The notes beneath the pieces are model-generated. The model saw only the letters and a program-made list of their open reading frames with translations, was not told the origin of the DNA and did not search any database. A stretch of 64,000 nucleotides of DNA, taken from assembly GCA_030696345.1 (NCBI GenBank), contig JAUYSK010000028.1, positions 124,001 through 188,000 of the forward strand. The letters are read 5' to 3'. The translations under genes were made by a program, and so were the position numbers. Source of the DNA: Azonexus sp. Its GTDB lineage: Bacteria; Pseudomonadota; Gammaproteobacteria; Burkholderiales; Rhodocyclaceae. Of the stretch, positions 46,537 to 63,121 are shown in pieces (position 1 is the stretch's first letter; the number at the start of each line of letters is the position of its first letter).

Positions 46537-46959
46537 TCAGGCCGACAGCACCCGTCGCAGCCCCCGCATCAGCGTCCCGAGCGCCGGCAGCTTCATGTAT
46601 AGCTCCTCGCCCGTATCCCAGTAGTCACGGTGGTAATTCACCTTGCCATCCGGGTCGAACTTCAGGTGGGAGACGCCGCGCATGACCTGCGCCTCGCCTT
46701 TACCCCAGAGCCGCACGCGGTAGTAGAACTCCCAGATCAGCATCACGCCACCGGCATCGGCCACCTTTTCAGTGATGACGAACCTCGGCTCGGCCACCTG
46801 ACTGAACATGTGAGTAAAGATGCGTTGAATCGCCGCGACGCCGCGCACTTCATTGAACGGGTCCTTGAAGTAGGCGTTGTCGCTGTAGAACTCCGGAAAA
46901 CGGGCAACGCTGTCGAGCGAAATGTCGTGATAGAACTGGATCAGTGCGTCGGTATTCAT
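46537..46959 (-). CDS. NTF2/SnoaL-like fold protein
   Basis: 140 aa, AALxDP-like FKDPFNEVRGVAAIQRIFTHMF. Confidence 0.75.
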   Translation of the reverse strand: MNTDALIQFYHDISLDSVARFPEFYSDNAYFKDPFNEVRGVAAIQRIFTHMFSQVAEPRFVITEKVADAGGVMLIWEFYYRVRLWGKGEAQVMRGVSHLKFDPDGKVNYHRDYWDTGEELYMKLPALGTLMRGLRRVLSA

Positions 46960-46960
46960 C

Positions 46961-47716
46961 TCAGCCTCCGGTAAAGCGGCGAATCAGCGGGAAATACCAG
47001 CCATAAGGCAGTAGCGCGAAAAACTTCATCAGGCGCGTGAAACGCTTGGGGAAATGGATTTCGAAATTTGCCGTTTTGAAGCCGTCCACCGCAGCAATCG
47101 CCGCCTGGGCAGGTGTTTGGAGCGCCGGCATCGTGAAATCGTTCTTGGCGGTGAGTTGGGTCGAGACAAAGCCCGGATTGATCACCCACACGCCAACTCC
47201 CTTGGGCGCCAAGTCGAGATGCAGCACTTCAGCAAAGTGAATCAGCGCCGCCTTGCCCGGCCCGTAGCAAAGTGCCTTGGGCAAACCGCGATAGCCGGCG
47301 ACGCTGGCGACGAAGGCTATGCCGCCGCCAGCCTTGAGGTCGGGCAATACTGTCGCCGCCAGCCGCATGGCACCGTTGAAGTTCACCGCAATGACTTTTT
47401 CGGCCACCGCCAGATCGAAGTTGTCAGCCCTCATAGGCACATAATCGCCGGCCAGATAAACGACCAGATCAATGCCACCCCAGGTGGCCAGCAGGCTTTC
47501 GCGGGCTGCGGCGAGACTGGCGGTATCGGTCGCATCGCAGGGCAGGAGCAGTGCACCGCCCACCGCCAGCGCCTTCAGCTTTTCGGCATTGCGCGCCGAC
47601 AACGCCAGTTTTGCGCCACGTCCGACCAGCTCGTGCGCCATCGCCGCACCGATGCCCGACGAAGCGCCGACCAGCCAGACGCGCTTGCCAACCCAGTCCG
47701 TTATTTTTGGGTTCAT
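46961..47716 (-). CDS. Short-chain dehydrogenase/reductase
   Basis: VGASSGIGAAMAHELVGRGAKLALSARN; CYGPGKAALIHFAE. Confidence 0.88.
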   Translation of the reverse strand: MNPKITDWVGKRVWLVGASSGIGAAMAHELVGRGAKLALSARNAEKLKALAVGGALLLPCDATDTASLAAARESLLATWGGIDLVVYLAGDYVPMRADNFDLAVAEKVIAVNFNGAMRLAATVLPDLKAGGGIAFVASVAGYRGLPKALCYGPGKAALIHFAEVLHLDLAPKGVGVWVINPGFVSTQLTAKNDFTMPALQTPAQAAIAAVDGFKTANFEIHFPKRFTRLMKFFALLPYGWYFPLIRRFTGG

Positions 47717-48234
47717 CGTTTCACGAAGGTCAGCGTCACTTCGCCCAGATTGAAGCCCCATTTCGACATATAGGAGCGGTTCATCATCACCTTGTCATCC
47801 ATCAGGTACATCCAGTCGTCAAAATCGACGTTGTAGACCTTGTCGTCCACTGGCAGTGCCAGCACATAGCGCCAACGCAAGGCATTGCCGGAAACTTCGC
47901 CAAGCGCCTCGCCAACCACGTCATCGGCCGTGCCACGGAAAGTGCCGTCTGGCTGCTTGATCAACGTCCACACCCGACGGGAAGTCGTGCCGTCAGACCA
48001 CTTGAAGTTTTCATCAAGGACACCAGTATCACCCGTCCACTTGGCATCGATCACGACGTGGAAGCGCTTCTTCACCTCGCCAGAGCGGCCCTGGAACATG
48101 CCCCAGGCGTCCAGTGTGCCGTTCAGATAGGTCTTCAGGTCGAGGGGCGGTTGTTCGGTTCGGTATTGTTCAACGCCGGTCGAGGCGCAACCGGCAAGGC
48201 CCAGCGTAAAAGCAGCAGCAAGCAAGAGTTTCAT
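47713..48234 (-). CDS. DUF3833 lipoprotein
   Basis: LAGCASTGVEQYRTEQPPLDLKTYLNGTLDAWGMFQGRSGEVKKRFHV. Confidence 0.85.
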   Translation of the reverse strand: MKLLLAAAFTLGLAGCASTGVEQYRTEQPPLDLKTYLNGTLDAWGMFQGRSGEVKKRFHVVIDAKWTGDTGVLDENFKWSDGTTSRRVWTLIKQPDGTFRGTADDVVGEALGEVSGNALRWRYVLALPVDDKVYNVDFDDWMYLMDDKVMMNRSYMSKWGFNLGEVTLTFVKR

Positions 48235-48236
48235 GA

Positions 48237-49454
48237 TCAGATCTCCAGAGAATGACGCCAGCGCCAGAGCAAGGCGCCAGCCAGCGCCTTGAAAGCAAGC
48301 GGCAGCAGGGCGTAGGCAAAAGTGAGGGAAGTCAGCCCGGCACCGCTGCCTGGCTGATAGCCGAGCGCGCCGAGCAAGGGTAGTGAAAGCCCGGCAGCCA
48401 GCGCCAGGTTGAGTTTCGAAACAAAATTCCAGACGCCGAAGCAAGCCCCGGCCTGCCCCTGACGTTCACCGAGATCGGCGGCGATGGCGGCAGGCAAAGC
48501 CAGATCGGCACCCAGCGCCAGACCGGAGGCAATACAGATGGCGGCGAAAAGCCAAAGATCGCCACTGCCAAGCAGGCTAGCCCCGGCGAAGGCGATGATG
48601 GAGAGCACGATTGCCCCGAGCCAGGCAAACACTCGACCGTAGCGCGCCGACAACTTGACCCAGAGCGGCAACGACGCTGCGCCGGCGATGAAATAAACAG
48701 CGAGCAGCGGCCCACTGGCCTTTTCCAGTTGCAGCACATCGGCCACGAAAAACAGGAACAGGGTTGCCGGCAAGGCAGCCGCGATCCCGTTGGCGACGAA
48801 GACCAGCAGCAGACGCCGGAAGGCGACATCGGCAAAGACCCTGCGCAGGCTGGGCAGCAAAGGCTGACTCGGCGCCAGCACCGGCTGACCGGCACCGACG
48901 CGACTGAAGGTAGTTGCCGCAGCGATCAGCAACAAGGGCGGCAAGATCCAGCTCAGGCGGGCAATACCATCGCTCAGATTCGTCGCGATCAAGGCCGGCA
49001 AGGCGGCGGCAAGTACGACGCCGAGCAAACCAAAACCTTCGCGTGCTGCGGTCAACCGCGTGCGCAGGGCAGAATCGACACCGATGTCGGCGCCCCAGGC
49101 CTGATAGGCGACAGTCGCCGCCGAGAAGCCGAGGTAGGTCAGTGCAAGCGACGCGAGCAGCCAGAGCGAAACATTGTCAGTCGGCGGGTTGAGCAGCGCG
49201 ACGAAGCCGATGGCGAAAGGTAACAGCGCCAGCGCCACCATGCGCGGGCGTGAAACACGGTCGGCCAGCCAGCCGAGCCAGGGATCGACGCCAGCATCGA
49301 GCAGGCGGGCACCGAGCAGAATGGCGCCGAGCAGGGCGAGTGGCATCCCGGCCACGTCGGCGTAATAGCGGGGGACGTGGACGTAGATGGGAAGAGCGGC
49401 GAAAGCCAGCGGGAGGCCTAGTAGGCCGTAGGCCAGGATGCGGCCGTTGGTCAT
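48237..49454 (-). CDS. MFS (GPH-type) transporter
   Basis: YVHVPRYYADVAGMPLALLGAILLGARLLDAGVDPWLGWLADR. Confidence 0.85.
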   Translation of the reverse strand: MTNGRILAYGLLGLPLAFAALPIYVHVPRYYADVAGMPLALLGAILLGARLLDAGVDPWLGWLADRVSRPRMVALALLPFAIGFVALLNPPTDNVSLWLLASLALTYLGFSAATVAYQAWGADIGVDSALRTRLTAAREGFGLLGVVLAAALPALIATNLSDGIARLSWILPPLLLIAAATTFSRVGAGQPVLAPSQPLLPSLRRVFADVAFRRLLLVFVANGIAAALPATLFLFFVADVLQLEKASGPLLAVYFIAGAASLPLWVKLSARYGRVFAWLGAIVLSIIAFAGASLLGSGDLWLFAAICIASGLALGADLALPAAIAADLGERQGQAGACFGVWNFVSKLNLALAAGLSLPLLGALGYQPGSGAGLTSLTFAYALLPLAFKALAGALLWRWRHSLEI

Positions 49455-49488
49455 GGCTTGCTGCTTGAAGCTGGTGGCTTCGGTTGGG

Positions 49489-50100
49489 TTGGGGTTCCGC
49501 CCTTGCGGGGCGTCTCACTTTTTCTTGCTTCGCCAAGAAAAAGTAAGCAAAAAGAAGGCGACCCTGGGGCGGTGCCGGCTGCGCCGGTTCCCTGCGCTAC
49601 TCGAAACGCCGGGGGGCTAGCTAAACTCGCCTGCGGCTCAGACAACGCCAGCCCAAAGCTCCCGGCGTTTCTGCGTTGCTCGGCACCTGCCAAGGGGCCC
49701 GGTGAAACGATCCGTGGTGAACTTGGGGCACGGTCATTCCCGCTTAGGCGGGAATCCAGCAGGGGTATGGACTCCCGCTTTCGCGGGAGTGACGGGGATG
49801 GGGTACTTATTTTGATTTTTGGCTTTTTCCCCGGTTGACCGTAGCAGTCAATTCCTGGGCTAGTGCTTCGTCCCGCGACGCCCTTCGGGCCCCTTGCGAG
49901 GCGCTGAGCAACGCAGGCGGGCCGGGGGAAGTCGGCTTGCCTTGTCTGAGCCGCAGGCGAGTTCTGGCAAGCCGCCCGGCCTGCCGAGTAGCGCAAGGAA
50001 CCGGGCTTGCCCGGCGCCGACCCAGGGTCGCCTTTTCTTTGCTTACTTTCTTTTGGCGAAGCATAAGAAAGTAAGACGCCCCGCAAGGGCGGAACCCCAA
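49489..50100. repeat. Large inverted repeat: two ~210-bp arms (49489-49700 and 49887-50100) around a ~190-bp centre
   Basis: ttggggttccgcccttgcggggcgtctcact... is matched by its imperfect reverse complement ...gtaagacgccccgcaagggcggaaccccaa; homology extends through gcgctactcg, actcgcctgcggctcagacaa and caaggggccc. Confidence 0.85.
49731..49793. repeat. Nested small palindromic repeat
   Basis: cggtcattcccgcttaggcgggaatcc...tggactcccgctttcgcgggagtgacgg. Confidence 0.7.
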
Positions 50101-50145
50101 GCAAAAACAAAGAACCCATCCCCGGCAAAGAGAAAGCAGCCATCA

Positions 50146-52613: not shown

Positions 52614-53924
52614 TCAGACACTTTCCAGTTCGCGGGCGACGGCAAGCACTTCGCCCTGCCAAGGCGCGCGAACGCCCAGGCCATTGACGACGCGCAGCGC
52701 CGATTTCAGGCCATCTTCATGGAAGCCATAGCTGCCCCAGGCGCCAGCCAGCCAGATCCCGTTCTCGCCCTGAACATCGGCCAGCCGTTGCTGGGCCGCG
52801 ATGGCCGGGCCGTCGAAAATCGGGTGGGCGTAGTCGAACTCAGCCAGAACCTTGGCAGGGTCGGGCTCACGCGCCGGATTCAGCGTCACCACCACCGGTG
52901 TCTTGAACGGCAGCGGCTGCAGTTTGTTGATCAGGTAGGAGACGCCAACCGGCTGTTCGCCCGGCTCGCCGCTGCCGGCAAAGTAGTTCCAGGCCGACCA
53001 CAGTTTTTCGTCGCGTGGCAGCAACGCGCGGTCGGTGTGCAACACGGCCCGGTTGGGCTGATAGCGAATCGCCGACAAGACTTCACGTTGGCCGTCAGTG
53101 GCCGTAAAGCCGAGGATGGCCAGCGCCTGATCGCTGTGGCAAGCCATCACCACCTGATCGAAATGCTCGCAGCCCGCCGCGTGCGTGACCTTCAGCCAGC
53201 CCCCTTCGCGGGTGACGGCGCTGACAGGGCAACCGAGGCGGATATCGTTCAATTGTGCCGCGATCTTCGCGACGTAATCGCGCCCGCCACCCTTGACCGT
53301 ACGCCACATTGGCCGGTCGAAGACCTGCAGCAGGCCGTGGTTCTGGCAGAAGTGAATGAAGGTGGCGAGCGGCATGTCGCGCATCTGGCCGGTCGGGCAG
53401 GACCAGATGGCAGCCGCCATCGGCAGCAAGTACCAGTCGGAGAAGGCGCTGGAATATCTGCCTTCCGTCAGAAAATCGTTCAGGCTGCGCTGCTGGTCCG
53501 GGTGGCTGGCCAGCCAGGCAGTGCTTTCCCGATTGAAACGCAGGATGTCGGAAAGCATCGACCAGAAGGAGCGACGCAGCAGGTTGCGCTTCTGACCGAA
53601 CACCGTCGCCAGACTGCTGCCGGCCCATTCGAGGTCGGGATTTTCCAGGCTGACAGCGAAGGACATTTCGGTCTCGACGCTATCGACACCGAGCAAGTCA
53701 AACATCGCAATCAGGTTGGGATAAGTCTTCTCGTTGAAGACCAGAAAGCCCGTATCGACCGGATGCGTCTTGCCTTCCAGCGTCACATCCACGGTATTGG
53801 TGTGGCCGCCGAGGTAGTCACCTGCCTCGAACAGCGTCACTTCATGCTGCTGGCTCAGCAGCCAGGCGCTGGCCAGACCGGAAATACCGGCGCCGACGAC
53901 GGCGATACGTTGCTTTCTGCTCAT
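52614..53924 (-). CDS. FAD-dependent oxidoreductase (amine-oxidase-like)
   Basis: IAVVGAGISGLASAWLLSQQHEVTLFEAGDYLGGHTNTV. Confidence 0.92.
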   Translation of the reverse strand: MSRKQRIAVVGAGISGLASAWLLSQQHEVTLFEAGDYLGGHTNTVDVTLEGKTHPVDTGFLVFNEKTYPNLIAMFDLLGVDSVETEMSFAVSLENPDLEWAGSSLATVFGQKRNLLRRSFWSMLSDILRFNRESTAWLASHPDQQRSLNDFLTEGRYSSAFSDWYLLPMAAAIWSCPTGQMRDMPLATFIHFCQNHGLLQVFDRPMWRTVKGGGRDYVAKIAAQLNDIRLGCPVSAVTREGGWLKVTHAAGCEHFDQVVMACHSDQALAILGFTATDGQREVLSAIRYQPNRAVLHTDRALLPRDEKLWSAWNYFAGSGEPGEQPVGVSYLINKLQPLPFKTPVVVTLNPAREPDPAKVLAEFDYAHPIFDGPAIAAQQRLADVQGENGIWLAGAWGSYGFHEDGLKSALRVVNGLGVRAPWQGEVLAVARELESV

Positions 53925-53933
53925 GATGACCTC

Positions 53934-54734
53934 TTATGCGTTGGAACCGACCAGCTCGGCATAGGCCGAGTGGTTGTGAATCGACTCGAAGTTTTCCGAA
54001 GCCACCTTCCAGTCGGAAATGCGTGGCTCATTCATCAGGCGGAGCGCAATGTCGCGCACCAGATCTTCGACAAATTTCGGGTTGTCGTATGCGCGCTCGG
54101 TCACATACTTTTCATCCGGGCGCTTGAGCAGCCCAAAGACCTCGCAGGAAGCCTCTTCCTCGGCGAAGCGCACCAGTTCCTCAATCGCCATTGCCGAGCG
54201 CAACTTCGCCTCCAGCGTGATGTGTGAGCGCTGGTTGTGGGCGCCATATTCAGAGATCTTCTTGGAGCACGGGCACAGGCTGGTCACTGGCGCCACCACG
54301 CGCAGCGTCAGGCTGGCTTGCTGCCCTGCCGGCTGTTCGATAAGCAGCGTCACGTCATAGTCCAGAAGGCTTTCAACGCCGGAAACCGGGGCCGCCTTGC
54401 GAATAAAGTAGGGGAAGGCCAGTTCGATGCGGCCGCTCCTGGCATCAAGGCGCAGCAGCATCTCTTCCAGCATGCGGAACAGGCCATCCTGGGTCAGCGC
54501 CTCGCGACGACCTTCAAGTAGCTCAACAAACCGGGACATGTGGGTGCCCTTGACCTCGGGCGACAGGCCGACCGTCATCGTCAGGTTGGCGACGGTACTG
54601 ACCAGTTCGCCACTGGCGGTTGCCAGTTGCAGCGGGTAGCGCAAGCCCTTGACGCCGACGTTCTGAATCGCCAGACAGCGGATGTCTGCAGTGGCCTGCA
54701 CATCAGGGAGGAAAAAGTGATCGGGTGCGTTCAT
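53934..54734 (-). CDS. folE2: GTP cyclohydrolase FolE2 (type IB)
   Basis: [37 protein letters not shown]. Confidence 0.95.
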
Positions 54735-54765: not shown

Positions 54766-55323
54766 TTACTTGAGAAACTCGTCAATCTTCTTCAGAAAAT
54801 CCTCGTCTTCCGGCTTGGTAAAGCTGCCGAAGGCCAGAACTTTCGTGGCGTCGCGATTGATCAGGTATTTGTGGAAATTCCATTTCGGCCGGCTGTCGGT
54901 GATTTCGGCCAGCTTCAGGTAGAACGGATTGGCCTTCTTGCCCTTGACCACGGTCTTGCCGAGCATCGGAAATTCGACGCCATAGGTCATGCGACAGAAG
55001 TCGGCAATTTCCTTGTCGCTACCCGGCTCCTGATCGCCAAAATCGTTGGACGGAAAGCCAAGAACGACCAGCCCCTTGTCCTTGAGCCGGGCATAAATTT
55101 TTTCCAGACCGTCATATTGCGAAGTAAAGCCGCAGTAACTCGCCGTATTGACCACCAGAATAACTTTCCCCTGGTACTGGCAAAGCGATTGCGGCTTGCC
55201 ATCAACCAGACCTGGGAAGGAATGGTTAAGCAGCGCCGGGCATTCGGCCGCACTGGCGGCCGGTACGATGCCAACAATCAGCAGGCCTGCAATGCCCAGC
55301 CAACGTTTCAAGTCATGAACCAT
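54766..55323 (-). CDS. Glutathione peroxidase with N-terminal signal peptide
   Basis: [57 protein letters not shown]. Confidence 0.92.
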
Positions 55324-55341: not shown

Positions 55342-55356
55342 TTTGTCCTAGACAAA
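55342..55356. promoter_or_regulatory. Perfect palindrome TTTGTC-CTA-GACAAA in the divergent intergenic region
   Basis: Near-identical site TTTGTTTAGGACAAA at 55416-55430, adjacent to the regulator start codon. Confidence 0.65.
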
Positions 55357-55393
55357 CAGAACATTTGTTCGTAAGATAACCATCAATCAACTT

Positions 55394-55426
55394 CCTGTCA
55401 ACAATTTGTCTAACTTTTGTTTAGGA
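55394..55426. promoter_or_regulatory. Three tandem 11-bp direct repeats; first overlaps the -35 box of the leftward promoter
   Basis: cctgtcaacaa|tttgtctaact|tttgtttagga; minus-strand TTGACA (55401-55396), 17-nt spacer, TATCTT (55378-55373). Confidence 0.65.
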
Positions 55427-55431
55427 CAAAA

Positions 55432-56337
55432 ATGAATACTCCCTGTTTCAATATTGGTGCGGTCGAACGCGACACCGGACTCTCCAAGGACGTCCTGCGC
55501 ATGTGGGAGCGCCGCTATGGCTTCCCGACGCCTGACCGCGACAGCAACGGGGAACGTAGTTACCCGGCCCCTCAGGTCGAGCGCCTCCGCCTGATCAAAC
55601 GCCTGATGGATGCGGGTCATCGGCCGGGCAAGCTGATTGCAACGCCGATGGAAGAACTGACCACGCTGGCACCGCGACGTTCAGTCCAAGCGACGACCAA
55701 TGAAACCGCCGGCACAGACGAACTCAATGAACTGCTCGCGCTGATCAAGCAAAACGACGGTACGGGTTATCAGCAGGCCATGCTGCAGCGCCTCGCCCGT
55801 CAAGGCTTGCAGCGTTTTGTCCAGGACACGATCGCCCCGCTCACCCGCCGGGTTGGCGAAGCCTGGGAAGATGGCAGCTTCGAAGTTTTTGAAGAACACT
55901 TGTTTACCGAGTTGACCAAGCGTCTGCTGCGCCAGGCCATCTCCAGCCTGGCCGGTGGCAACCAGGGGCCGCGCGTCCTGCTGACCAGCGTGCCGGACGA
56001 GCAGCACGTCATCGGCCTGCTCATGGTTGAAGCGCTGTTTGCCCTTGAAGGCGCCGAATGCATCCCGCTCGGCACCCAGATGCCCCTGCTAGAAATCGCC
56101 CGGGCCGCCAGCGCCCACAAGGCCGACGTTGTCGCGCTGTCGTTTTCGGTTGCCTTCCCGCAACGGCAGATCCCTGGCCTGCTGCAGCAATTGCGTCAGG
56201 TGCTGCCTGCCGAAGCTGAACTCTGGGCCGGCGGCGGCGGCGTCCAGCGACTGGGAAAACTCGATGGCATCCTTGTGCTGACTGGCTTTGACAGTGCCAT
56301 TTCAGCCCTGACAAACTGGCGCAAGAATCACCAGTAA
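55432..56337 (+). CDS. MerR-family regulator with cobalamin-binding domain (LitR/CarH-like)
   Basis: MerR HTH FNIGAVERDTGLSKDVLRMWERRYGFPTPDR; Wx9EH = WEDGSFEVFEEH; ExHxxG = EQHVIG; SFSV; GGGG. Confidence 0.92.
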   Translation: MNTPCFNIGAVERDTGLSKDVLRMWERRYGFPTPDRDSNGERSYPAPQVERLRLIKRLMDAGHRPGKLIATPMEELTTLAPRRSVQATTNETAGTDELNELLALIKQNDGTGYQQAMLQRLARQGLQRFVQDTIAPLTRRVGEAWEDGSFEVFEEHLFTELTKRLLRQAISSLAGGNQGPRVLLTSVPDEQHVIGLLMVEALFALEGAECIPLGTQMPLLEIARAASAHKADVVALSFSVAFPQRQIPGLLQQLRQVLPAEAELWAGGGGVQRLGKLDGILVLTGFDSAISALTNWRKNHQ

Positions 56338-58993: not shown

Positions 58994-61900
58994 TCAATCC
59001 GTCAAATTGCAACAATGGTCCGCTTGGACACGAATAATTTCCCGCGCATTGACAAAGTCGAACTGCCGAATCTGTCGCTCAAGAGCATCGCAGGAAGGCC
59101 CCAGAGCGCCTCGCAATTTTGTGGCATTGAGATCGAACAACGCAATTGCGGCGGTGTCGCTTTGCGCCAGCAACGCGTCGAGTTCAGCCAATATCTGCAT
59201 TAGGTCCTGCAGGTCTTGCGCCGATGTGGCAAGTGACGCTGACAAAGTCGGCGCCTCGTCAGGTGAGTCATGTTGCTCAAGGCTATGCGGAGTTTTTCTC
59301 GCGGTCGTTGCCGGCAGCCATTTCAGCAAGGTCGCGTAGAGCACGTCCGGTGCGACTGGCTTGGCAACGAAGTCGTTCATGCCGGCCTCTTCGCAGGCGC
59401 GGCGATCTTCGGCGAAGGCGTTGGCCGTCATGGCGAGAATGGGCGTATTTTCGCGTCCGGTCAGGGCTCGAATGGCGCGGGTGGCCTCAAGGCCATCCAT
59501 GTTCGGCATTTGCATGTCCATCAGGATCAGGTCGAAGTCAGTCAGACTGGCCTTGTTCAGAGCTTCCTGGCCATCGACAGCGATTTCTACCACCAGCCCC
59601 GCTCCGTGCAGCAATTCCAGCGCAATCTCGCGGTTGATGGCATTGTCTTCGGCCAGCAGGATGTTTTTGTCGCCATGGAGACGACGCAGGCGAGATTCCG
59701 GGCTGGCGGATGTTTCGTTCTCCCCCGGCTCATTGGGCATGATGCCGTGACCGCGCTGCAGGTGAGCCGTGAACCAGAAAGTGCTGCCGACACCCGGCGT
59801 GCTCTCGACGCCGACTTCGCCACCCATCAATCGTGCCATGCGTTGGGTAATGACCAGGCCAAGGCCTGTTCCCCCATAGTTGCGCGTGGTCGAAGCATCT
59901 GCCTGCTCGAAAGCCTTGAATAGTCGGGTAAGTGCCTCCGGCGCGATACCGATGCCGGTATCTTTGACCTCGAAGCGGACCAGCAAATCGTTGTCGTTGT
60001 CAGCGAGTAGTTTGGCGCGCAGGGTAATCACGCCTTTATCGGTAAATTTGACGGCATTGCCGGCAAAGTTAAGTAGTGCCTGGCGCAGGCGGGTCGGGTC
60101 ACCGCGCAGCCAGAGCGGAACGGCATCCCGGTCAAGTTCGATCTGCAAGCCCTTGTCACGCGCCGAATAGCCAATGATGGAAGCGACATTGTCGAGAATT
60201 GCCGATAGATGAAAATCCCTGCTCTCAAGTTGCATCTGCTCGGCTTCGATCTTGGAGAGGTCGAGGATGTCATTGATGATCGACAGCAGGTGTTGGCCAG
60301 CGCCCTGTATCTTGTCGAGGCGATCGATCTGCAAGGGGGTGGCGCCATTGTGCCGCAGGATATGGGTAAGGCCGATGATGGCATTGAGCGGGGTGCGGAT
60401 TTCGTGGCTCATGTTGGCCAGGAACTGTGATTTTGCCCGACTGGCTGCTTCTGCCTGCTGGCGTGCCATGGTCAGCTCCATCGTGCGCTGTTCGACAATT
60501 TCTTCCAGATGGTGCCGATGCTCGTCCAGCTCCTGCCCGAGTCGCTTCTTCTCGGTGATGTCTTCCTTGACGGCGACGTAATGGGTGATCTGACCATCGG
60601 CCTGACGCAATGGCGTGATGATGGCAAACTCGATGTACTCGCTGCCATCCTTGCGCTTGTTGTGGAACTCGCCTTTCCATGGCTTGCCCTGATTCAGGCT
60701 GTCCCATAGGGAAACGAAAGTCTCGGGCGGCGTTTTTCCCGAGTTCAGGATACGCGGGTTTTGCCCGAAAGCTTCTTCCCGGCTGTAGCCGGTGTTGCTG
60801 ACGAAGCTCTGATTGACGTACTGAATTTCACCCGCCAGATTGGCAATGGCGATGCTCTCCGGGCTTTGTTCGACGGCCAGCAAAAACTGTTGCAATGACA
60901 GTTCGCGCTGTTTCAGTTTTTCCAGCAGACGGTTGAAGCCGCCGATCAACTCGCCAATTTCGTCATGATGGAGGATCGGCAAGACTTCGGCGGCGTTGCC
61001 ACTATCTGCCTGCGTAGCCAGTGAGCCGGCGGTGAGCAACAGCGGTGCCAGTTGGCGCCGCAACATCCACCAGGTTATCGAACCGGCCAGTAGCGTCAGG
61101 AAAATTGCCGCAAGCAACAGGCGTTGCTGCATTTCGCCAATGGGCGCAAAGGCTCTCTCGGTTGGCAAGGCGACAACGACATACCAGCCTGCAGCGGGAA
61201 TTTTCCTGGAAGATGCCAGTACTTCCACCCCTTTGGGATTAACCAGAATGGCGGTGTCCCCGTCGCCCTGAATGAACTGATCAAGGGCGAGGTTGACACC
61301 CGGCGCAGGGAGCTGCGCCATGATCCGGCTTTTGTCGGAGGCAACAACAATTTGGCGATGCTGAGGTGCGATCAAGAGCAACTCGCCTCCATTGCCGAAA
61401 TGCTTTCCCTCAATCTTGTTCAGAAAATTGTCCTTGCTCAGGTCAATGACTGCAGAGAGGGCACCGATTACCACCCCCTGCGTATCGCGAATAGGTGTGC
61501 CCATGGAGACAACCGGCGCAGCCATAACTCGGCCCATGATCGGCTGGCTGACTGTTGCCTTCCCGTCCTTGAGGGCCGCGACAATATGGTCCCGGTACAT
61601 GTAGTTGAGGCCGATCCGCGGGATTGAGGTAGGAACGGAGGCAATCGCAGTGCCGTCAAGGCTGGTGACGAAGGCGCCGGCATTGAAGAGAGTGCGCAGA
61701 ATCACGCGTTGTTCCAGCTCTGCCTGAAGTTCCGTCTTGTCCACCATGAACGGCGCAACCGAGGTAGCCACTTTTTCCATTGCATCGAAGCGCAGCATCA
61801 GGTCGTCGTTGATCGATGCTGCAACAAACGAAGCGGCCGATACCTGCTGTTCACTCAACAGCTTTTCCATGTCGTCATGCAGAATGCGGCTGGCGTAGAA

Positions 61901-62023
61901 AGCCAAAGCCCAGATGCTGACGACAAAAATGGCCAGCGTGAATAACGTGATCCGCGTTTTGAGCGAACGTGAGAGAAAGTTTTCCCGAGTCATGTTTGAG
62001 GATTCACTGAGCTTCGATGTCAC
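58994..62023 (-). CDS. Hybrid sensor histidine kinase (Cache-HAMP-PAS-HisKA-HATPase-REC plus Hpt-like tail)
   Basis: [68 protein letters not shown]. Confidence 0.93.
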
Positions 62024-62026
62024 TCA

Positions 62027-63121
62027 TCAGCCGGCGTCACGGTAGCGTTCGGCAATGGCGACGAAATCGTCAAAGTTGCTGAGAAAGACATCGGCTACGT
62101 CGGGGTCGAAATGCTGGCCGCGGGCATCAGCAATGATGGCGCGGGCTTCGTCGTAACTCATCGCGGGTTTGTAGACGCGCGGCGTGATCAGTGCGTCAAA
62201 GACATCGGCCAGCGCCATCAGTCGGGCTGATACGGCAATGGCTTCGCCGGCCAGACCATCGGGGTAGCCACTGCCATCCCATTTTTCATGGTGCCAGTGC
62301 GCGACCTCCTTGGCGAGCCCGAGAAAAGCCAGGGGCATCTCCATGTCGCGCTCGACTCGTTCAATGGCTTCGCTGCCCAATTGTGCGTGCGTTTTCATGA
62401 TGACCCATTCGTCCGGGGTCAGCTTTCCGGGCTTGAGCAGGACCTGGTCGGGAATTCCAACCTTGCCGATATCGTGCAGGGGCGCCGAGCGCGCCAGCAG
62501 CTTGATGAAGGTTTCGGTGAGCGTCTCCACGAAGCGCGGATGTTGCCTTAGCCCGTTGGCCAGTCGCTGGACATAGCCCTGAGTGCGCAGGATATGGTCG
62601 CCGGTTTCCGGGTCGCGGGTTTCCGCCAGGTGGGCCAACGCCCGAATGGTGGCGAGTTGCGTATGATCGTTCTCGGCCATTCGCCGGGCTACTTCAGCTT
62701 CGAGGACCGCATTTTCATTCTTCAGCCAGTCGCGGGCCTGCTTTGCTTCGAGCTGGGTGCGCACCCGAGCCAGCACAACGGCCGGCTTGATCGGTTTGGT
62801 GATGTAGTCGGTCGCGCCAAGTTGCAGACCACGCTCTTCATCTTCAGCGCCGCTCAGTGCTGTTAGAAAAACCACCGGGATGTCGCGCGTCGCATCGCTC
62901 TCGCGCAGTCTGGCCAGTACCTCATAGCCATCCATGCCCGGCATCATGACGTCGAGCAGAATCAGGTCAGGTTTCTGTTGACCATTTGCCACCTGCAGGG
63001 CAGCGGCGCCAGAGGTTGCCGCGAGTACGCGATATTGTGGTTGCAGAAGGCCGTTCAATACGCTCAGGTTTTCGGGCGAGTCGTCGACAATCAGGATGAT
63101 GGAGCGGGTTTCGGCAAGCAT
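62027..63121 (-). CDS. Response regulator with HD-GYP output domain
   Basis: REC ILLDVMMPGMDGYEVL; HDIGKVGIPDQVL; HHEKWDGSGYPDGL. Confidence 0.93.
   Translation of the reverse strand: MLAETRSIILIVDDSPENLSVLNGLLQPQYRVLAATSGAAALQVANGQQKPDLILLDVMMPGMDGYEVLARLRESDATRDIPVVFLTALSGAEDEERGLQLGATDYITKPIKPAVVLARVRTQLEAKQARDWLKNENAVLEAEVARRMAENDHTQLATIRALAHLAETRDPETGDHILRTQGYVQRLANGLRQHPRFVETLTETFIKLLARSAPLHDIGKVGIPDQVLLKPGKLTPDEWVIMKTHAQLGSEAIERVERDMEMPLAFLGLAKEVAHWHHEKWDGSGYPDGLAGEAIAVSARLMALADVFDALITPRVYKPAMSYDEARAIIADARGQHFDPDVADVFLSNFDDFVAIAERYRDAG

Follow-up and report, generated by a model that had tools for sequence, protein, structure and literature searches.

The B12 light sensors of the CarH kind characterised to date mostly govern carotenoid genes. 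The closest described example is CarH/LitR of Thermus thermophilus (TtCarH; PDB 5c8d, 3whp), whose bis-His light state is formed by ligation of His132. Published CarH operators consist of tandem 11-bp nnnnTnnACAn repeats, one of which includes the -35 element in Thermus (PMC9304148). The class II LitR proteins of Pseudomonas (PplR1, PmlR1/PmlR2) are devoid of a B12-binding domain; PmlR2 relies on a short LOV protein as its antirepressor, no B12 is needed in P. putida, and the light-induced genes include ufaM, folE and genes for a short-chain dehydrogenase (SDR), a flavin adenine dinucleotide (FAD) oxidoreductase and a photolyase (PMC9758184). In Rhodobacter sphaeroides, UfaD, UfaO and UfaM make furan fatty acid (PMC7380195). 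Furan fatty acids, which scavenge singlet oxygen, have so far been linked to sigma-E/ChrR and to LOV-dependent LitR. The locus described here lies in a 64,000-nucleotide stretch of an Azonexus sp. genome (contig JAUYSK010000028.1, positions 124,001 to 188,000; hereafter the window, meaning this whole stretch) and sets a gene for a B12-binding LitR, litR, face to face with a putative furan-fatty-acid operon. There are good grounds to expect that adenosylcobalamin (AdoCbl)-loaded LitR represses both litR and the facing operon in the dark, and that light releases it. If true, this ties a CarH-kind sensor to furan fatty acids, in a bacterium whose genome yielded no canonical LOV motif, no BLUF domain and no carotenoid desaturase above threshold. 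A direct report of a betaproteobacterial LitR with furan lipids was not found in the literature searched.

A preliminary description of this DNA had read positions 55432-56337 as a LitR/CarH-like protein with a MerR helix-turn-helix (HTH), and the open reading frame agrees with it. The ATG at 55432 is preceded by an AGGA ribosome-binding sequence and is also the start of close orthologues, the stop ends at 56337, and the 301-residue product carries three Pfam domains in the CarH order (MerR_1, E = 3.6e-13; B12-binding_2, E = 1.8e-7; B12-binding, E = 2.5e-8, above its cut-off). The N-terminal HTH with RxWERRY, followed by the two C-terminal B12 domains, is the arrangement of class I-type LitR/CarH proteins. 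The features of the gene and its product are as follows.

55432-56337, plus strand: litR, LitR/CarH-type regulator of 301 residues (open reading frame, Pfam domains, predicted structure)
55450-55620, plus strand: MerR HTH, residues 7-63, with the RxWERRY DNA-recognition motif (Pfam MerR_1)
55753-55932, plus strand: B12-binding_2 helical bundle, residues 108-167 (Pfam)
55864-55899, plus strand: W145-x9-E155-H156, adenosyl cap, with Glu146 at the position of TtCarH His132 (family alignments)
55972-56205, plus strand: B12-binding Rossmann domain, residues 181-258 (Pfam)
55999-56016, plus strand: E190-x-H192-x-x-G195, motif of the lower axial His ligand (invariant in alignments)
56071-56085, plus strand: GTQMP, the GxxxP signature of light-responsive B12 domains (alignment; signature from PMC11796333)

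The Wx9EH and EQHVIG motifs are intact, as had been claimed (W145-x9-E155-H156 and E190-Q-H192-V-I-G195), and W145, E155, H156, E190, H192 and G195 are all invariant in a 40-row family alignment. The combination of GxxW-x9-(E/D)H and ExHxxG, with D allowed for E155, occurs in 40/40 family loci and in 80/80 named loci (Dechloromonas, Accumulibacter, Thauera, Zoogloea, Massilia, Polynucleobacter, Caballeronia and others), two sets that come from overlapping groups and may have some genomes in common. GxxxP is present in 79 of the 80 named loci, and RxWERRY is invariant or nearly so in both family alignments. The published long motif, D/ExHx2G/P-x41-SxT/V-x22-27-GG (PMC9304148), is reproduced with exact spacing, 41 residues separating G195 from S237 and 27 separating S239 from G267G268. 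The earlier reading of SFSV as SxV is inexact at this point: Ser239 occupies the T/V position, which gives SxS followed by Val, and this Ser is almost unchanged across the clade. Judged from the alignments, the conservation of these motifs indicates that cobalamin binding under an adenosyl cap is strongly selected, and AdoCbl binding by LitR is well supported. The genome also encodes BtuR/CobO, an AdoCbl-forming enzyme.

TtCarH/LitR is the best match among solved structures (E = 1e-30, ~30-35% identity), and the two proteins share domain order, Wx9EH, ExHxxG, GxxxP and fold. An AlphaFold model of LitR, built with 60 named orthologues, reaches a mean predicted local distance difference test score (pLDDT) of 92.3, and its top Foldseek matches are all TtCarH chains, with a root-mean-square deviation (rmsd) of ~2.8 Å for the B12 domain and a TM-score of ~0.8 on the target. 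Over the full length the rmsd is large, presumably reflecting a different setting of the hinge that joins the HTH to the B12 domains. In a small tree that holds no Pseudomonas sequences, LitR nests in a betaproteobacterial clade and two paralogues from the same genome fall outside it. By its domains, predicted pocket and candidate operator, LitR belongs to the LitR/CarH family with B12-binding (class I-type) members; along with the fold and the conserved motifs, these features strongly support the earlier view of a ligand-competent rather than degenerate protein. Class II is ruled out by the B12-binding domain and by the lack of a match to a canonical LOV motif in a DNA-pattern search of the genome, and membership of classes III-V by features tested or described. 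An intact Wx9EH is what divides B12-dependent CarH from its B12-independent paralogue CarA, in which the Trp is lost; CarA is ruled out here, as the Trp is present.

The most telling support for a CarH/LitR photoreceptor comes from the predicted CarH-type operator in front of the operon. It lies in the divergent promoter region of 100 bp between litR and gpx, the first operon gene, which contains the following elements.

55342-55356, no strand assigned: candidate operator O1, TTTGTCCTAGACAAA, a palindrome that includes the litR -35 (TAGACA, 55349-55354)
55372-55378, no strand assigned: TAAGATA, -10 common to litR (plus strand, TAAGAT) and the operon (minus strand, TATCTT), with a 17-nt spacer for each
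55396-55423, minus strand: three tandem 11-bp TnnACA direct repeats (55423-55418 TAAACA, 55412-55407 TAGACA, 55401-55396 TTGACA)
55416-55430, no strand assigned: candidate operator O2, TTTGTTTAGGACAAA, a palindrome directly before the litR ATG, whose minus strand carries the first TnnACA repeat

The last repeat, TTGACA, is itself the operon -35, so that, as in Thermus, three tandem 11-bp repeats include a promoter element (PMC9304148). The triple at 11-bp steps is the only one on either strand of the window. In a set of 118 non-redundant orthologous promoters, the commonest spacings of TnnACA pairs on the operon strand are 11 bp (28 promoters) and 22 bp (19), with 0-2 at most others; these other counts are a better control than a single-base shuffle, which understates the background. 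O1 and O2 are palindromes resembling TTTGTCCWRGACAAA, and in relatives the distance between them concentrates on two values, 63 and 74 bp (19 and 20 cases, respectively), which differ by one 11-bp repeat. With one -10 read in both directions, the promoter looks bidirectional; the same arrangement is seen in 63 of the 118 promoters, where shuffled sequences would give 0.4, and bidirectional promoters of this kind have been described as a class (PMC10268837, PMC12825309).

Genome-wide, the palindrome occurs at up to one mismatch just as O1 and O2, both in the litR intergenic region, which limits the predicted regulon to litR and the operon opposite. Of 200 family genomes, 68 have the exact site TTTGTCCWRGACAAA as well as LitR (E<=1e-20), 118 have neither and 14 are discordant (Fisher p = 4e-38, a value inflated by the relatedness of the genomes). 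In relatives the site also precedes photolyases (loci L154, L156 and L157), a cryptochrome/photolyase-like gene (L161), a fasciclin protein gene and a second gpx, and these ties to light repair independently support light as the signal. The operator provides an immediate regulon predictor for many betaproteobacteria. The preliminary description was right to see neither a photolyase nor a carotenoid gene next to litR: the one photolyase gene detected in the genome lies on a different contig, with no site within one mismatch upstream of it or elsewhere outside the litR promoter, and the genome holds only sub-threshold matches to a crtI-type carotenoid desaturase. A photolyase gene lies within ~9 kb of the litR-ufa locus in relative L066. 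In two genomes of the same genus (L149, L150) a LitR operator is located between divergent SDR and lipocalin genes; that SDR has no match in the present genome at E<=1e-30.

From these features we infer AdoCbl binding, repression by LitR and release by light. In the dark, W145/E155 in the helical bundle and H192 in the Rossmann domain would hold AdoCbl between them, and the loaded oligomer would bind the tandem TnnACA repeats and the two palindromes. Covering both -35 boxes, it would keep litR and the furan-fatty-acid/FolE2/GPx operon off. Green or blue light would cleave the Co-C bond, the oligomer would lose its grip, and both directions would fire, yielding singlet-oxygen-scavenging furan fatty acids, pterin precursors and peroxidase.

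Several features count against this reading and set LitR apart from TtCarH. Glu146, directly after W145, occupies the position of the light-state ligand His132, and in the 80 named orthologues the residue is A, M, E, L, S, I, V or T, never the His that Thermus uses for bis-His ligation. In one study the TtCarH H132A variant remained largely tetrameric in the light; the same paper notes an earlier report of disassembly (PMC10442372). The Arg176-Asp201 dimer salt bridge of TtCarH corresponds to Gln191/Gln216, as read from alignments. The GxxW/EH/GxxH/GxxxP signature (PMC11796333) is incomplete: GEAW, EH and GTQMP are present, but GxxH reads DEQH (DxxH), and its Gly occurs in just 23/80 named orthologues. 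LitR scores 124.8 bits against the NCBIfam equivalog TransRegCarH (NF052513), whose cut-off is 400, and palindromes are not general in published CarH operators. The earlier statement that both cobalamin motifs are intact thus holds, but it hides the Glu at the His132 position, the DxxH and the Gln-Gln pair. Elsewhere, His is found at the 132 position in many myxobacterial CarH proteins but not all (PMC9304148). CtMerR (PDB 8jbs/8jbt), also a CarH-type B12 photoreceptor, has a natural Arg there (PMC11796333); it is a distant sequence match to LitR, and its anaerobic light-exposed structure has a Glu-mediated water contact to cobalt. With Glu here and no His at this position anywhere in the clade, LitR must switch its light-state ligand in another way than Thermus CarH, and the published bis-His switch cannot run as described: binding is expected to be CarH-like, while the path from photolysis to release of the DNA probably differs in detail. 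It is an even chance that a CarH-type clade spanning the betaproteobacteria has evolved a light switch that dispenses with His132 and bis-His ligation and has linked it to a symmetric promoter, with one -10 serving both directions and an operator on each -35, so that litR and a photoprotection operon for furan fatty acids are switched as one. As a natural lineage without the His132 light ligand throughout, the clade makes the need for bis-His in light release, on which the H132A reports disagree, directly testable.

Light could also reach this promoter through another protein, LitR being a B12-independent repressor that takes its input from a separate photoreceptor, as do the Pseudomonas class II LitRs with their short LOV antirepressor or E. 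coli BluR with its BLUF domain. The target genes (ufaM, folE, SDR, FAD oxidoreductase) are similar to those of P. mendocina PmlR2, whose mapped layout, with one operator over the -35 and one between the start site and the ATG, matches the placement of O1 and O2 (PMC9758184); the half-sites differ, the Pseudomonas operator being TGTACA-N12-TGTACA. Class II proteins, however, are without the B12-binding domain that is present here with all its ligand residues invariant, and a bacteriophytochrome that the genome does encode sits with a LitR paralogue on another contig. Input of the Pseudomonas or E. coli type is less likely because no BLUF domain and no canonical LOV motif were found in the genome, the latter by a DNA-pattern search that could miss divergent LOV proteins. 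Taken together, this alternative is improbable.

Equally improbable is that LitR senses AdoCbl availability or oxidation (coenzyme B12 status or Co(I)/oxygen chemistry) instead of light, with the operon answering oxidative membrane stress. Without the His132 ligand and the dimer salt bridge, the CarH light switch itself could be lost, and gpx and furan lipids would be of use against oxidative stress of any kind; on the other hand, the operator precedes photolyases in relatives, which points to light, and free AdoCbl is itself photolabile. The MerR-family fold would also suit a light-regulated activator, but both promoters have 17-nt spacers and near-consensus hexamers, so that spacer distortion is not needed, and operators covering the -35 boxes are the layout of a repressor. 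Activation is accordingly very hard to credit, and light-released repression by AdoCbl-loaded LitR is the preferred explanation.

The genes on the facing strand are listed below.

54766-55323, minus strand: gpx, glutathione-peroxidase-like, first operon gene (Pfam)
53934-54734, minus strand: folE2, GTP cyclohydrolase I (Pfam and NCBIfam)
52614-53924, minus strand: ufaD-like FAD/NAD-binding fatty-acyl desaturase (domains; role by analogy with R. sphaeroides UfaD, PMC7380195)
51847-52608, minus strand: ufaO-like DUF1365 protein (Pfam; PMC7380195)
50666-51850, minus strand: ufaM-like S-adenosylmethionine-dependent fatty-acyl methyltransferase, CMAS family (Pfam; PMC7380195)
50146-50697, minus strand: chalcone-isomerase-like protein (Pfam, family loci)
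48237-49454, minus strand: MFS transporter, probable distal operon gene (family loci, gap comparison)
47713-48255, minus strand: DUF3833 protein, probable distal operon gene (family loci)
46961-47761, minus strand: SDR, probable distal operon gene (family loci)
46537-46959, minus strand: SnoaL-like protein, probable distal operon gene (family loci)

The ufaD-, ufaO- and ufaM-like genes lie near litR in 64, 57 and 56 of the 80 named loci. By domain they correspond to UfaD, UfaO (DUF1365) and UfaM, and by this domain-level analogy furan fatty acid is the expected operon product. The R. sphaeroides genes (ufaM, RSP1087-1091; sigma-E/ChrR-linked) answer a singlet-oxygen-responsive extracytoplasmic function sigma factor (PMC7380195), whereas a B12-dependent light repressor is predicted here; Thermus CarH differs again in facing carotenoid genes. 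The lipid, pterin and peroxidase genes named in the preliminary description are all there, but it had presented the operon as something other than a usual light target. Because the set (ufaD-ufaO-ufaM/folE/DUF3833/SDR) resembles light- or singlet-oxygen-induced clusters of Pseudomonas and Rhodobacter, it is best read as an operon for protection against light and singlet oxygen. The MFS, DUF3833, SDR and SnoaL genes are also present in 31-33 of the 40 family loci, and the chalcone-MFS gap is <=134 bp in all loci except three close relatives, which makes it very likely that all of these genes, from gpx to SnoaL, belong to the ancestral operon. In the window the operon is split between the chalcone-like and MFS genes by a long inverted-repeat element of ~620 nt (49484-50105), related long copies of which occur at about three further places in the genome. 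Among ~70 loci, this gap is enlarged solely in the close relatives L163, L165 and L049.

Further LitR paralogues with B12 motifs are encoded elsewhere in the genome. On contig C18 (144644-150214; locus L014, 3645-9215) a second LitR with intact Wx9EH and ExHxxG immediately precedes genes for a heme oxygenase and a bacteriophytochrome-GGDEF-EAL protein, which suggests B12 light sensing and red-light/cyclic di-GMP signalling in one operon. A third, on contig C3 (locus L015, 8605-12446), abuts a CheB-CheR-PAS gene. No 11-bp repeat pair was found at either paralogue, the only operator-like sequence being a weak TTAGTCCAGCACAAA ~50 bp upstream of the C3 copy. Just past the end of the window (contig C16, ~189.5-190.2 kb; locus L017, 3482-4219), a stand-alone CarH-type B12 domain without an HTH (GTLW-x9-EH, EYHQIG, GANTP) is followed by a PAS hybrid histidine kinase, an HD-GYP-like response regulator (window positions 62027-63121) and a Cache hybrid kinase (window positions 58994-62023), and together these may form a B12-light phosphorelay.
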